Positions 515 through 6,481 of a stretch of DNA of 64,000 nt are shown here, in pieces; position 1 is the first letter of the stretch; the number at the start of each line of letters is the position of its first letter. Source of the stretch: Oscillospiraceae bacterium (GTDB lineage Bacteria > Bacillota > Clostridia > Oscillospirales > Ruminococcaceae); the NCBI GenBank assembly GCA_017848115.1, contig JAGAKZ010000011.1, positions 1 through 64,000 on the forward strand, in the 5' to 3' direction. The notes under the pieces are model-generated. The model saw only the letters and a list, made by a program, of their open reading frames with translations. It was not told the DNA's origin and made no database searches. The translations under genes and the position numbers were made by a program.

Positions 515-1300
515 ATGGAGATTACTGACAAAAACTTAGATGGCGGAAAAGCTTTTGACTGGGGAAAAACTTCATCTGATTATGCAAAATATCGTGACAT
601 TTACCCACATGAATTTTATAAGAAAATCATTGACCGAAATTTGTGTATAAAAGGACAGAATATACTTGATCTGGGTACAGGAACGGGGGTTTTACCGAGA
701 AATATGTATTCTTATGGCGGAAAGTGGACAGGTACGGACATTTCCGAAAATCAGATAGAACAGGCAAAGATTTTGTCAGAAGGTATGGATATTGAGTATT
801 ACGCTTATTCGGCTGAAAATTTAAAATTTGAGGAAAATTCATTTGATGTGATTACAGCCTGTCAATGTTTCTGGTACTTTGACCATGAAAATATCATGCC
901 GAAGTTATATAATTTTTTGAAAAAAGACGGACGAATCCTTGTGCTGTATATGGCATGGCTACCTTTTGAAGATAAAATCGCAGGCGAAAGCGAAAAAATC
1001 GTACTCAGATACAGCCCGAACTGGAGCGGAGCCGGAGAAACCATGCACCCGATACATATTCCGGAGTGTTACAAGGAAAAATTTGAACTTATATATCACG
1101 ATGAATACAAACTAAACGTTCATTTCACCCGTGAAAGCTGGAACGGAAGAATGAAAGCCTGTCGTGGCGTAGGCGCTTCCCTTACCCCCGACGAAGTAAA
1201 CCGATGGGAAACCGAACATCTCGCAATGCTCGAAAAAACAGCACCCGACGAATTTGATATCCTGCATTACGGTGCAATCGCCGAACTTAAAAAGAAATAG
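515..1300 (+). CDS. Class I SAM-dependent methyltransferase
   Basis: A 261-residue cytoplasmic methyltransferase of the UbiE/BioC-like class I fold. The SAM-binding motif I, ILDLGTGTGVLPR, is near residues 50-62, followed by an acidic motif II (GTDISENQIEQA) and the motif around FDVITACQCFWYFD. The substrate cannot be told from sequence. I chose the ATG at 515 because GGAGG at 502-506 sits eight bases before it; the in-frame ATG at 500 overlaps that ribosome binding site and would leave none. It is a monocistronic gene between its own promoter and a hairpin terminator. Nothing around it suggests a pathway. Confidence 0.88.
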   Translation: MEITDKNLDGGKAFDWGKTSSDYAKYRDIYPHEFYKKIIDRNLCIKGQNILDLGTGTGVLPRNMYSYGGKWTGTDISENQIEQAKILSEGMDIEYYAYSAENLKFEENSFDVITACQCFWYFDHENIMPKLYNFLKKDGRILVLYMAWLPFEDKIAGESEKIVLRYSPNWSGAGETMHPIHIPECYKEKFELIYHDEYKLNVHFTRESWNGRMKACRGVGASLTPDEVNRWETEHLAMLEKTAPDEFDILHYGAIAELKKK

Positions 1301-2795: not shown

Positions 2796-3227
2796 TTATC
2801 CAAGCTTTACATCTTCGCACATGATATACTGCTTAAGGTGTGCAAGGTCAGCGAGGTTTACTTCATTGTCACCGTTTGTGTCTGCTGTGTACATTTCAAA
2901 ATCGTTGAATGTTTTGTCACCAATCAGATAAAGTGAAAGTTCTGTAAGATCGGTTAAATCTACGCTGTTATTGTTGTCGATGTCACCGGGGGTTGGGAGA
3001 AGTGCTTGTTCAGGTATAGGTCCATCACTTTTAAACACTTCAATTATCGGATTACCTTCTTCATCAAAACCAATAAGTTCGTCATATGTTCCGCCCCAAA
3101 TTTCATTTCCATCAGCATCAGTACCTAATAATTTAGCTTCTGCATTTACTTGGAGAACGTTAAAAGAGGTAACGGACAAGATTGTAACTGCGGATAAAAC
3201 TGCGAGTAAAGATTTAAATTTTTTCAT
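2796..3227 (-). CDS. Small secreted dockerin protein
   Basis: A 143-residue exported protein with the same signal peptide (MKKFKSLLAVLSAVTILS) and the same LLGTDADGNEIWGG segment and dockerin end (IMCEDVKLG) as the protein at 1455-2519, but without the repeat units. The dockerin (about residues 80-143) carries DIDNNNSVDLTDL and DTNGDNEVNLADL loops. With only some 50 residues between signal peptide and dockerin it has no room for a usual catalytic domain, so it may be a short binding or blocking peptide displayed on the scaffold. It starts 12 bases after the protease gene stop, so the two are probably one transcript; AGGAGG is present before the ATG. Confidence 0.83.
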   Translation of the reverse strand: MKKFKSLLAVLSAVTILSVTSFNVLQVNAEAKLLGTDADGNEIWGGTYDELIGFDEEGNPIIEVFKSDGPIPEQALLPTPGDIDNNNSVDLTDLTELSLYLIGDKTFNDFEMYTADTNGDNEVNLADLAHLKQYIMCEDVKLG

Positions 3228-3239
3228 AGAAATTCCTCC

Positions 3240-4364
3240 TTAAAGATTTGGATTGTTATAAATAAAATGCATTATATTAGTGTCTATTCTTTTTGCTGTA
3301 TTACTATAAGCGCCATTACTACCACTGTGTATACCAATTACTGTCATACTCCCATCGGAGTTCATAACATATACAGGGCTACCACTTTCACCACCAACAG
3401 TATCTGTATTGTAATATAAACATTTTGATGATGTTTTACTCTCTGCAAGGAAACCAGAACCTGTTACCATTTCAAAAAACAATTCTGGACGTGACGGATT
3501 ATTTATCACACTATATCCAGTAACGTATATTTCAGGATTTGTATTTCTAACTTTATCACGTGCTACACCTAAGTCAAAACACATATAGTCATACAAATCT
3601 TGAGATACAGTAATCAATGCATAATCTGATTCTGGAGAATATGATGATAAATCTAAGTAATCCTGAGGTACATGATAATAATCAGCACCATATGTACCAT
3701 TAGAAGTTCCATCTGAACTATACAACGTATAAGATAAATCATACGCTAAAGCTTCTTTTTCTGCTTCATATAAGCAATGAGCCGATGTTAAAATCGTATG
3801 TTCATCTACAACAAAACCAGTAACTACATACCTTTTTGCAACTCCATCAATCAATTTAGTGTAATTTAACCGTACTACACCACTTTTAGAATAATCTATT
3901 TCTCTTGTGTCATTTCCGATAATTGCACGAGGTGACATATCTGTTATAGAAGAAACAGGTGATAACGTGTAGTTATTACCAACTTTTGTTCCTGTAGATG
4001 CATTATATTTACCATATGAAACAGCAGACTGAGCTGGAATACTCTCATTTGTGGATGTATATGAAATTAAACATGTTGGAATATCATAACGTATAATATC
4101 AGATATCGCATCAATATCACAATAATCAATAATACCATCTAAATCAACATCTAGTCTCTGCGACATCAAATCATCAGCAGTAGAGTTACTGCCTCCGAGA
4201 AACAACGAAAGATTCGTAAGATCTGTCAAATCTACAGTGCCGTTTCCGTTCACATCACCCTTTAAGTAGGTTGTAGATGTAGATGCACTTGCACTTACCC
4301 CTGAAACAGACACACACATAGCCAATGATAAGATTCCTGTAATTAAAGTTCTAAATTTTTTCAT
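3240..4364 (-). CDS. Secreted trypsin-like serine protease with N-terminal dockerin
   Basis: A 374-residue exported protease. Order: signal peptide (1 to about 28), dockerin (about 35-97, loops DVNGNGTVDLTDL and DVDLDGIIDYCDI), then an S1/V8-like protease domain (about 150-374). The triad is visible: His196 in TSAHC, Asp247 in SDYALI and Ser327 in GGESGSP. It would cleave extracellular proteins while held on a cellulosome-like complex. The dockerin is at the N-terminus, whereas most are C-terminal. I use the ATG at 4364 because GGAGG lies at 4374-4378; the longer TTG-started frame from 4391 would include that ribosome site. It heads a leftward group with the dockerin gene at 2796-3227. Confidence 0.88.
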   Translation of the reverse strand: MKKFRTLITGILSLAMCVSVSGVSASASTSTTYLKGDVNGNGTVDLTDLTNLSLFLGGSNSTADDLMSQRLDVDLDGIIDYCDIDAISDIIRYDIPTCLISYTSTNESIPAQSAVSYGKYNASTGTKVGNNYTLSPVSSITDMSPRAIIGNDTREIDYSKSGVVRLNYTKLIDGVAKRYVVTGFVVDEHTILTSAHCLYEAEKEALAYDLSYTLYSSDGTSNGTYGADYYHVPQDYLDLSSYSPESDYALITVSQDLYDYMCFDLGVARDKVRNTNPEIYVTGYSVINNPSRPELFFEMVTGSGFLAESKTSSKCLYYNTDTVGGESGSPVYVMNSDGSMTVIGIHSGSNGAYSNTAKRIDTNIMHFIYNNPNL

Positions 4365-4430
4365 AGCAAATTTCCTCCAATTTTTTGACAATTAAGTCAA
4401 TTCCCTTTTTTCAATTTTAAATTATTCAAT

Positions 4431-4489: not shown

Positions 4490-4897
4490 TCAGGCATTTT
4501 CCTCAGTGCTGTAAGCAGTAATTTCTTCTGAGTTATTTCCTGAATAAGCAGTAAAAACAGATTTTAATCTGTATGTACCGCTTGGTAAGTTGCTTTTGGT
4601 ATTTGTTGCATTTCCACGATATCCAGTATCAGTTTCGCTCCAGATATCAACTATTATCCAAGTGTATGCAAATCCTTTTACTTCAAGAGTCTGAACTATA
4701 TTAATCTTTGTTGTAGTTCCGGAATACCCTGTAGCTCCACTTGTACAAGTTGCTGTTGAGTTTGAAATTGACAATTCTGAACTTGTTGATTTAAGATACA
4801 AAGAATACGGAGAAATATTCTCTGCGGAAATATTAGTTGTACCTACACAAAATGAAGTAGCAACACCACATACTAAACTTAAAAGTTTCTTCAACAT
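4490..4897 (-). CDS. Small secreted protein (DUF6147-like)
   Basis: A 135-residue exported protein: signal peptide MLKKLLSLVCGVATSFCVG, then a Ser/Thr-rich beta-type domain with ATGYSGTTTKINIVQTLE and a closing SGTYRLKSVFTAYSG. The pattern matches a family of short secreted Firmicutes proteins that I recall as DUF6147; no function is known to me. I chose the ATG at 4897 because GGGGG lies at 4906-4910, eight bases upstream; the GTG at 4906 overlaps it. A copy of the sigma-linked 40-bp element (4966-5005) lies about 69 bases upstream, suggesting control by the adjacent ECF sigma factor. Confidence 0.75.
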   Translation of the reverse strand: MLKKLLSLVCGVATSFCVGTTNISAENISPYSLYLKSTSSELSISNSTATCTSGATGYSGTTTKINIVQTLEVKGFAYTWIIVDIWSETDTGYRGNATNTKSNLPSGTYRLKSVFTAYSGNNSEEITAYSTEENA

Positions 4898-4965
4898 CTG
4901 ACACACCCCCTATCTATAATAAGATGTAAAGTATAAAGGTATATCACCTTTTAACCATACTCATA

Positions 4966-5005
4966 AATAATAACAATATATAAGCATAAATCCTGACAAG
5001 AAAAT
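4966..5005 (-). promoter_or_regulatory. Copy 3 of a 40-bp element, candidate ECF promoter
   Basis: On the minus strand ATTTTCTTGTCAGGA, then 14 bases, then TTGTTATTATT. The same two blocks with the same 14-base gap occur at 6049-6088 and 6337-6376. Position relative to the small secreted protein gene fits a promoter. An alternative is that it descends from the sigma coding sequence, since it reads FSCQDLCLYIVII in one frame. Confidence 0.55.
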
Positions 5006-5081
5006 TGAAATTAAAAGTGAGTTCTACTTTTTAAACAAATTTTATAAATTGAAATTAGTAAATTCAAACAATACAAACGTA

Positions 5082-5759
5082 TTATTTCAATACTTTAACA
5101 GATTCAGCAATATCAAACAAAGTTTCTTTTTTTGTGTTTGTGATAATACAAAATAAATAATCTCCGTTATCCCATGTTAAATAATGATAACCTTTATAAT
5201 CTATAAAATATATCGCTTCAATTTTATTAATCATTACATTTTCAATATTGGCATTTTCAGTATTAAGTGTTAATGAAGTATCTTTTACATATTGCGTAAA
5301 ATCAATACTAATATCATCTTTCAAATATTCAATACAATTTTTAGTATTATCCAACATTTCATAAACTACTTCATACCCACTCAAATCATAAGTAATTTCA
5401 TAAATATCTTCAATGGTTTCAGGCACTTGCTTATCATCTGCAGGAGTTATAACAGAATATTTTTCAAATATATTAAATTTTATATTTACAAACACTTCCC
5501 TCAACGCATCAATTTTAACCACCGAAACAGTTGACGCAATCACCAATGCACCAATGGCTACAGCTGTTCTTTTAAATGTGTTGTTTATAAAAGGATAATA
5601 AATTTTATTACGCCGTTTTATAAGTCTGGACATCTTCTTTTCAAATTTTCTTGAAAAAATATGTTCTTCACATTGTTCCGGCAACATATCCGTATATTCT
5701 GATAAAAGTGCTTCACTGACTGCATTTTTAAAATTGTCATCAGACACATTGCTCATCAT
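5082..5759 (-). CDS. Single-pass membrane protein, probable anti-sigma factor (DUF4367-like)
   Basis: A 225-residue protein with a cytoplasmic N-terminal part of about 65 residues, one membrane segment (TAVAIGALVIASTVSVV, near residues 67-83) and an extracellular domain ending in WDNGDYLFCIITNTKKE, which resembles DUF4367 (the W..G..Y lines). The ATG at 5759 overlaps the 3' end of the ECF sigma gene and has AGGAG seven bases upstream, so the two are translationally coupled. The arrangement is that of a membrane anti-sigma factor holding the sigma factor until an outside signal arrives. This role is inferred from context; the cytoplasmic part is not a recognisable zinc anti-sigma domain. Confidence 0.78.
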   Translation of the reverse strand: MMSNVSDDNFKNAVSEALLSEYTDMLPEQCEEHIFSRKFEKKMSRLIKRRNKIYYPFINNTFKRTAVAIGALVIASTVSVVKIDALREVFVNIKFNIFEKYSVITPADDKQVPETIEDIYEITYDLSGYEVVYEMLDNTKNCIEYLKDDISIDFTQYVKDTSLTLNTENANIENVMINKIEAIYFIDYKGYHYLTWDNGDYLFCIITNTKKETLFDIAESVKVLK

Positions 5760-6276
5760 TATCCAACTCCTTTTTAAGTATTTTCTTCCCTCGTTCAAGT
5801 CTTTTCCATACAGCTGATTTGGAAATCCTGAACATTTCGGCAATTTCATTACTACTAAACCCTAGAACATAATACATCAGAAAAACATCTTTATAACTTT
5901 CAGGTAACCCGGAAATCTTCTCAACAACTCTCTTGTATTCATATTTTTCAAGAATATCACTGCTTTCGGATATATTATCGTCCATCTCCGTATTACGCTC
6001 GGACCTTTTTTTATTCTGATTGAATATGTTTATAGAAGTGTTTCTAATAATAATAACAATATAAGCCTCAAGTTCCTGACAAGAAAATAAAGAAATTTTT
6101 TTAAAATTATTTGCAACAGATAAAAACGCGTGCCCAACAGCATCTTCGGCATCGTGTGAATTTCTGAGAATAGAATACGCTATCGCATACATACGCTGTC
6201 TGTATTTTAAATATAATTCTTCAAATTTATCTTTATCATTCTCATCATCAATTATTGTAAAGCATACCCCCAACAT
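5740..6276 (-). CDS. ECF-type RNA polymerase sigma factor (system 1)
   Basis: A 178-residue sigma-70 family protein of the extracytoplasmic-function size class. Region 2 is near residues 20-85 (YRQRMYAIAYSILRNSHDAEDAVGHAF), region 4 near 115-170 (LPESYKDVFLMYYVLGFSSNEIAEMF, a helix-turn-helix). AGGAG lies about ten bases before the ATG. It is followed by its overlapping membrane partner and, further left, by secreted and dockerin genes. One copy of a repeated 40-bp element lies 61 bases upstream of the start and another lies within the gene (6049-6088), which would fit autoregulation. Signal and true targets are unknown. Confidence 0.9.
   Translation of the reverse strand: MLGVCFTIIDDENDKDKFEELYLKYRQRMYAIAYSILRNSHDAEDAVGHAFLSVANNFKKISLFSCQELEAYIVIIIRNTSINIFNQNKKRSERNTEMDDNISESSDILEKYEYKRVVEKISGLPESYKDVFLMYYVLGFSSNEIAEMFRISKSAVWKRLERGKKILKKELDNDEQCV
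6049..6088 (-). repeat. Copy 2 of the 40-bp element, inside the sigma gene
   Basis: ATTTTCTTGTCAGGA, 14 bases, TTGTTATTATT on the minus strand, here coding for FSCQELEAYIVII of sigma region 2. It could be an internal promoter for the membrane partner, or the source from which the other copies arose. Confidence 0.6.
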
Positions 6277-6336
6277 AAACTCTTTCTCCTTTTTAAAATG
6301 AGATCTCTAAAAAAAGACTTTATTAATGCTTCTATT

Positions 6337-6376
6337 AATAATAACAAAACAACTCATTGATTCCTGACAAGAAAAT
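6337..6376 (-). promoter_or_regulatory. Copy 1 of the 40-bp element, candidate autoregulatory promoter
   Basis: ATTTTCTTGTCAGGA, 14 bases, TTGTTATTATT on the minus strand, 61 bases before the sigma start codon. Similarity to copy 2 extends over roughly 75 bases, including the upstream A/T tract. Confidence 0.6.
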
Positions 6377-6435
6377 TAAAAAAATTTTTTTAATACCATA
6401 AACACATATAAAAACAGCCATAACTGCAACCTATA

Positions 6436-6481
6436 AAAACAAATCCCACAGAAATTTTTTTAATCTGCGGGATTTGTTTTT
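6436..6481. terminator. Bidirectional terminator
   Basis: AAACAAATCCCACAGA pairs with TCTGCGGGATTTGTTT, with T runs on both strands; it ends the leftward kinase-like gene at 6502-7251. Confidence 0.85.

Follow-up and report, generated by a model that had tools for sequence, protein, structure and literature searches.

A promoter-like site within a clostridial ECF sigma factor gene covaries with a putative target promoter and with the residues predicted to read it

Results

An ECF sigma factor locus with three copies of a bipartite element

The window analyzed here is a 64,000-nucleotide stretch from the genome of a gut bacterium of the Oscillospiraceae (contig JAGAKZ010000011.1). A gene at 5740..6276 (-) encodes a 178-amino acid protein with Sigma70_r2 (38.4 bits) and Sigma70_r4_2 (49.8 bits) domains, both above the Pfam cut-off, and a match to the NCBIfam sigma70-ECF family TIGR02937 (83.3 bits; cut-off 42.9). 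The presence of regions 2 and 4 only, in a protein of this length (about 180 amino acids expected), identifies it as an ECF (group 4) sigma factor. Its end overlaps the start of a second gene at 5082..5759 (-), which is preceded by AGGAG and encodes a 225-amino acid protein. A longer reading of this frame matches DUF4367 (49.2 bits; Pfam cut-off 22.1), a domain of unknown function in Pfam, and a hydrophobic stretch is visible by eye in the protein. From the gene order we infer an anti-sigma role for this protein; we found no report on DUF4367 with ECF or anti-sigma factors in the literature searched.

Further along the same strand, a gene at 4490..4897 (-), for which a GTG start at 4906 is also possible, encodes a small secreted protein of 135 amino acids. 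It adjoins, and is possibly co-transcribed with, a gene at 3240-4391 (-) whose product has a trypsin-like protease domain and an N-terminal dockerin-like stretch (22.3 bits, below the Pfam cut-off of 22.9). Two dockerin proteins with near-identical N-terminal halves are encoded at 1455-2519 and 2796-3227 (-), and the longer of the two has a repeated segment of about 100 amino acids.

A preliminary description of this DNA reported three copies of a bipartite element around and inside the sigma factor gene and read the outer two as ECF-type promoters. A search for ATTTTCTTGTCAGGA-N14-TTGTTATTATT that allowed up to 3 mismatches confirmed the copies, returning three minus-strand matches with 0 mismatches each, and the motif was absent from 100 of 100 shuffles. 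Copy 1 (6337..6376 (-)) ends 60 nt before the sigma ATG (6276); a terminator-like inverted repeat (6435..6481; 18-nt arms, 94% complementary, 11 nt apart) sits between it and an upstream kinase-like gene. Copy 2 (6049..6088 (-)) lies inside the sigma gene at codons 63-76, in sigma region 2, with its -35 block TGTCAGGA at 6074-6081 (-) and its -10 block TTGTTATTATT at 6049-6059 (-). The first open reading frame after copy 3 (4966..5005 (-)) is the secreted-protein gene; the copy ends 59 nt short of its possible GTG start or 68 nt short of its ATG (4897). The outer copies are thus in promoter position, as originally described. Common to all three is TGTCAG-N17-TGTT, an ECF-type short -35 element with a GT-containing -10 element, set apart by the spacing of such promoters (about 16-17 nt).

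A search of the whole genome (3,343,622 bases, 81% complete) with the motif minus its first six bases, again with up to 3 mismatches, recovered the same three exact matches and one 3-mismatch match at an EF-G/EF-Tu junction, while the reversed pattern gave 0 matches. Beyond the three copies, these 3.34 Mb (81% complete) hold 0 places within two mismatches of the searched core form. The copies are not confined to fragments of sigma genes, a pattern that the preliminary description had named as contrary to its promoter reading. Its proposed link to dockerin genes found no support: no additional copy precedes such a gene in the window or the genome. A dockerin/cellulosome regulon of the sigmaI-like kind was rejected on the same grounds, the motif having no additional copies in either. 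In three other genomes, the best copies likewise sit at sigma loci: three exact ones in G010, two with 0 and 1 mismatch in G001, and two with 2 mismatches each in G006. The remaining matches there have 2-3 mismatches, and totals of 16, 9, and 14 in that order compare with 7, 10, and 11 for the reversed pattern. Chance occurrence in the genome was rejected as the source of the copies, given that the best matches in all three are at sigma loci.

The copies appear to have different histories

Copies 1 and 2 match at 78% across 67 nt, and the identity of their flanks is above that of shuffles (P 0.0002), which bears out a likeness beyond the blocks noted earlier. Copies 3 and 2 show no match outside the blocks (P 0.41), and within the 14-nt spacers no pair of copies is above shuffles (5, 5, and 4 of 14). 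Copy 1 reads as a sigma-like peptide with one stop, FLYVFMVLKKFF*FSCQESMSCFVIINRSI, that scores 26.9 bits against a sigma factor (best of 200 shuffles, 25.4), whereas the copy 3 peptide scores 23.1 bits, below the 23.5 reached in shuffles. The suggestion that both outer copies descend from coding sequence is therefore favored by these measures for copy 1 and disfavored for copy 3. Given its flanks and its interrupted sigma-like peptide, copy 1 is probably a relic, namely a decayed sigma-gene fragment reused as an upstream autoregulatory promoter that is extra in this species. Among the closest homologues looked at, copy 1 is present only in G000 and G010 (L028). We regard the three copies as promoter-like sites with different histories, of which copy 3 is the predicted target promoter of the small secreted protein.

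Partner sites recur downstream of the putative anti-sigma gene

A site at the same position and spacing as copy 3 is found in L028, L029, L058, and others, and the site after the anti-sigma gene is kept in L029, with a sigma factor 68% identical, and in L030. In L054, a 44% identical homologue, the -35 block TGTCCAAA occurs twice, once within the sigma gene and once past the anti-sigma gene, which suggested covariation between the two places.

Homologues came from three sources. A contig search contributed 80 loci, kept from at least 328 relatives. Of 396 family-level genomes, at least 207 gave a match at E 1e-20, and 30 loci and 100 additional listed places were fetched; of 391 class-level genomes, 97 gave one at E 1e-25, and 30 loci and 40 additional places were fetched. 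A first sliding test on 112 loci, comprising all homologues and both flanks, was mixed: codon 66 ranked among the gene's top 1% in just 12 loci and among its top 5% in 22. After this test we split off homologues with an NGT codon at residue 66, hereafter NGT loci.

Partner sites were sought 900-1500 nt downstream with gaps of 13-15 and scored out of 20. Of 117 NGT loci, 48 have a partner scoring 15/20 or more, where random codons of the same genes give a mean of 1.2 (maximum 3, 10 draws); for 16/20 or more the figures are 33 and 0.1. Loosening the threshold to 14 yields 56 loci where random codons give 8.3, and the 56 pairs used below accordingly include some chance ones. The other 69 of the 117 NGT loci are without a 15/20 partner in the stretch searched, and 13 of 144 non-NGT loci reach this score, some perhaps through a one-codon alignment shift (e.g., L299). 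When all columns of the gene were scanned against the downstream flank in 90 NGT loci, the codon-66 column had the highest mean match, 7.0 sd above the others, with 20/90 loci at 16/20 or better; in 115 non-NGT loci codon 66 stood at only 1.0 sd. Comparing each locus with its own flank and with those of other loci gave a modest signal (own mean 13.8 vs 12.5, 90 NGT loci), with 25/90 NGT loci and 14/115 non-NGT loci beating 95% of other-code loci.

In the upstream flank, further copies are uncommon among 116 NGT loci. Upstream autoregulation as a general rule was rejected, as codon 66 falls outside the top six columns by mean z in these loci; the codon-66 column still has the most scores of 16 or more in the upstream flank (4 loci: L005, L210, L311, and L034). 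Separately, L034 and L142 have a distant TGTCCAAA-type site 913 nt and 984 nt, respectively, ahead of the sigma gene, which would fit a target on its opposite side in that subfamily.

Filtering the first open reading frame after the partner site to 95-160 amino acids retained 40 of 55, of which 36 fall in one sequence-linked family. Members in these 36 loci are secreted proteins of about 130-147 amino acids from Clostridia. The 135-amino acid protein of the window has no Pfam match to E 1 and no NCBIfam match to E 0.01, and five family members compared with Pfam and two with NCBIfam gave no meaningful match. In L029 (G001, about 600-760 (-)) the target promoter is intact and the secreted-protein frame stops after a few codons; in L030/L055 (G006:C233) the sigma homologue is broken over two reading frames and both sites are nonetheless kept.

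The internal site is constrained as DNA and agrees with the downstream site

Codon usage around copy 2 is skewed in NGT loci. The Val74 codon is GTT in 92 and GTC in 5 of 118 NGT loci, compared with GTT in 272/852 elsewhere, and 10 of the 11 positions listed for codon bias fall between residues 65 and 79, residue 66 being among them by selection. No comparable cluster appears in non-NGT loci. Residue 66 itself is encoded by TGT (92), AGT (14), CGT (9), or GGT (3), such that the amino acid varies and GT is fixed by the definition of the set.

Agreement between the internal and downstream sites was measured at the -35 triplet, that is, codon 67, with the triplet hidden while the site was chosen. 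At a fixed gap, 28 loci reach 13/17 and have a mean triplet identity of 2.36/3, compared with 1.20 in permuted pairings (maximum 1.82, 20,000 permutations); the triplet is identical in 16/22 at an offset of 950-1150. With gaps of 13-15, it is identical in 19/25 (permuted mean 4.2, maximum 13, 10,000 permutations), and looser thresholds give 23/35 and 24/46. We further examined 27 later-fetched loci, for which the HMM threshold was 80 bits vs 100 in the first set. Here 10/11 triplets are identical at threshold 13, where the permuted maximum is also 10, and 14/20 and 14/21 at thresholds 12 and 11 (permuted maxima 13 and 12, 10,000 permutations); four of these loci (L278, L279, L281, and L282) are from one genus. 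The triplets in agreement at threshold 13 are CAG, CAC, AAC, AGT, CCA, CCT, and CCC, and CCG agrees in L068. Pairs in disagreement include L029 (CAC/CAG), L171 (AGC/AGT), L166 (AAA/AAT), and L066 (AAG/AAT), along with L054 (TTG inside, TCG outside).

These patterns bear on a reading in which the internal segment is kept for the protein (C-x-K/E-T...V-I-I-V) and its likeness to the intergenic site reflects chance or ancestry. Residue 66 is mostly Cys among conserved neighboring residues, and related loci have triplets in common, as this reading would expect. We nevertheless consider it very improbable, because residue 66 varies (Cys, Ser, Arg, Gly) among loci that keep the partner, the codon bias clusters at residues 65-79, almost no partners arise from random codons in these genes, and the third base, synonymous wherever codon 67 encodes proline, agrees with the target in 9/9 such pairs. 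The signal at residue 158 described below, which survives redundancy reduction, argues in the same direction.

Base-by-base agreement was assessed in 48 equal-gap pairs; because these were selected by total score, they favor agreement within the blocks. Positions that agree well above permuted pairings are the base preceding codon 66, the triplet of codon 67, the base after that triplet, and the -10 base before GTT, while most of the spacer agrees about as often as in permuted pairs. Gene conversion or repeated copying that carries the coding segment into the promoter would account for the resemblance of copy 1 to the coding copy beyond the blocks. As a general explanation it is extremely unlikely, since copy 3 has only the blocks in common with the coding copy and spacers mostly agree no better than permuted; copying of the coding segment remains the likely origin of copy 1 and is disfavored for copy 3.

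The loci share ancestry, and joint-change statistics refer to a poorly resolved tree. Parsimony over 55 rows gives 23 changes of the internal triplet, 9 of its first base, and 13 of the -10 base; an independent-pair test on this tree, with 1 to 4 pairs on supported branches, gave no significance. Statistically, these results show constraint on the internal site as DNA and its agreement with the target site and, as described next, with the residues that would read it.

Site bases covary with predicted DNA-reading residues

For 82 NGT loci, we next compared the site with the protein. Apart from residue 67, which it encodes, the first triplet base has its strongest association with residue 158, followed by residue 161, and triplet bases 1-2 add residue 157. 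All three residues (157/158/161) lie in the sigma4 recognition helix. For the internal -10 base, the strongest associations are with the DxxR pair of region 2.4, residues 86 and 83. Redundancy reduction to 65, 51, 44, and 31 representatives (<60, 50, 45, and 40% identity outside these segments) left residue 158 first for the triplet base in all four sets; residues 83/86 are the top two for the -10 base with 65, 51, and 44 representatives, and residue 86 is first with 31. In the first set, C as first triplet base goes with K/R/Q158 in 54/58 and A with another residue in 26/28, and in the later-fetched loci the counts are 14/15 and 9/9. The later-fetched loci also pair -10 base C with D83/R86 in 10/10 and T with N83/N86 in 11/11.

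We take residues 157 and 158 to be the putative equivalents of R171 and S172 of E. coli sigmaE. R176, S172, and R171 of E. coli sigmaE are -35 contacts, as cited in PMC3397946, and the available text of that paper describes the D of DXXR in Tt-RpoE1 as reading -12G. Because partner sites recur, triplets agree, the triplet predicts residue 158, and the -10 base predicts the DxxR residues, it is very probable that the sigma factor reads its own gene. The view of the outer copies as ECF promoters has good support, from the recurrence of the same site after the anti-sigma gene in relatives and from the covariation of the -35 and -10 blocks with the sigma factor's own recognition residues. The main point, which the preliminary description missed, is that the in-gene copy is itself kept as DNA across Clostridia and coevolves with the target promoter.

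Discussion

The joint change of the hidden copy, the target address, and the reading residues in relatives points to a built-in feedback loop. We think it likely that the sigma gene holds, in its region 2 codons, a working promoter copy that is read by its own product and provides negative feedback in cis. The most likely object of the internal promoter is the DUF4367 anti-sigma gene. From the internal -10 block to the start of that gene the median distance is 309 nt, and a Shine-Dalgarno-like motif is present in 40/55. A transcript from the internal site could thus give anti-sigma and not intact sigma factor; both the start of transcription there and anti-sigma synthesis as its purpose are inferred.

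According to this model, a putative membrane-type DUF4367 anti-sigma factor would release the sigma factor, and active sigma would start transcription at the adjacent secreted-protein promoter (copy 3) and also at the site inside its own gene (copy 2). The internal transcript would yield no intact sigma factor and would cover the anti-sigma gene about 300 nt downstream. Because of this composition of the transcript, activation would raise inhibitor more than activator. In the window analyzed here, copy 1 upstream of the sigma gene would add positive autoregulation.

Two other uses of the internal site merit consideration. The holoenzyme might bind it as a roadblock or decoy that damps transcription of the sigma gene, a reading for which the recognition evidence is identical and which would suit the site's place near the beginning of the gene; the roughly 310 nt between it and the anti-sigma start are long for a dedicated promoter. 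We view this as unlikely, since -35 and -10 elements are kept at full promoter spacing, where a roadblock would have no need for a melting-competent -10, and since C. glutamicum has a sigma-dependent internal promoter for an anti-sigma gene, as described in the available text of PMC3489674. The internal transcript might alternatively encode a truncated, sigma4-only protein that antagonizes full sigma, as the site precedes region 4 in frame. The prospects of this reading are very slim: we found no conserved internal methionine in a comparison of ATG-type starts, the commonest column having Met in 9/56.

More broadly, we lean towards the view that these genes form, in many Clostridia, a self-addressed sigma family, with a dual-coding gene, feedback that travels with the gene pair, an address that drifts with the recognition helix, private regulons, and a genome-readable code. 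If so, the codons of region 2 would also spell a promoter read by the sigma factor's own sigma2 and sigma4 domains. Duplication or transfer of such a gene pair would carry the address, its reader, and the inhibitor circuit together, so that each copy brings its own feedback loop. The address could also drift with the recognition helix, and the family could thereby radiate into private regulons that each serve a single small secreted protein.

Such a family would be a family-wide bacterial case of coding sequence doubling as a coevolving promoter, with conserved incoherent (negative) feedback in cis. Its recognition code (157/158/161 to the -35 triplet; 83/86 to the -10 base) would be readable straight from genomes, and residue-to-base pairs could be learned from thousands of genes without experiments. 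A regulator's target would be readable inside its own gene, offering a direct computational way into the prediction of ECF promoter specificity, an open problem, and an unnamed small secreted protein family could be assigned to a dedicated switch. In the literature searched we found no conserved internal cognate promoter in an ECF family; a description in the large ECF reclassification is possible.

Known systems share parts of this arrangement. The clostridial pair Tt-RpoE1/Tt-TolB of Thermoanaerobacter tengcongensis resembles it in comprising an ECF sigma factor with an adjacent anti-sigma factor (a putative one here) and a DXXR contact to the -10 element (PMC3397946). Its promoter is tGTTAC-N16-CGTC, compared with tGTCAC/tGTCAG-N17-CGTT/TGTT here; its autoregulatory promoter lies upstream of the gene, with a start about 39 bp before the start codon, and the available part of PMC3397946 describes no internal copy. 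Orthogonal ECF sigma/promoter pairs likewise represent families with mutually distinct promoter specificities, though, as presented in the available text of PMC3817407, their promoters lie outside the gene, whereas the address described here lies inside it.

The closest parallel is sigH-rshA of C. glutamicum, in which a SigH-dependent promoter inside sigH, PrshA, drives only the anti-sigma gene. PrshA was mapped by experiment in one species and has a proposed role in shutting the response down, according to the available text of PMC3489674. Both systems combine an ECF sigma factor, an adjacent anti-sigma gene (a putative one here), and a same-sigma promoter inside the sigma coding region, the last of these being indicated here by sequence and coevolution only. 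Unlike in sigH-rshA as described there, the predicted anti-sigma partner is a DUF4367 protein, and the site occupies region 2 codons across Clostridia, with a changing sequence that tracks sigma specificity. The layout is thus already known from C. glutamicum, and its coevolving, dual-coding, family-wide form is the new part.
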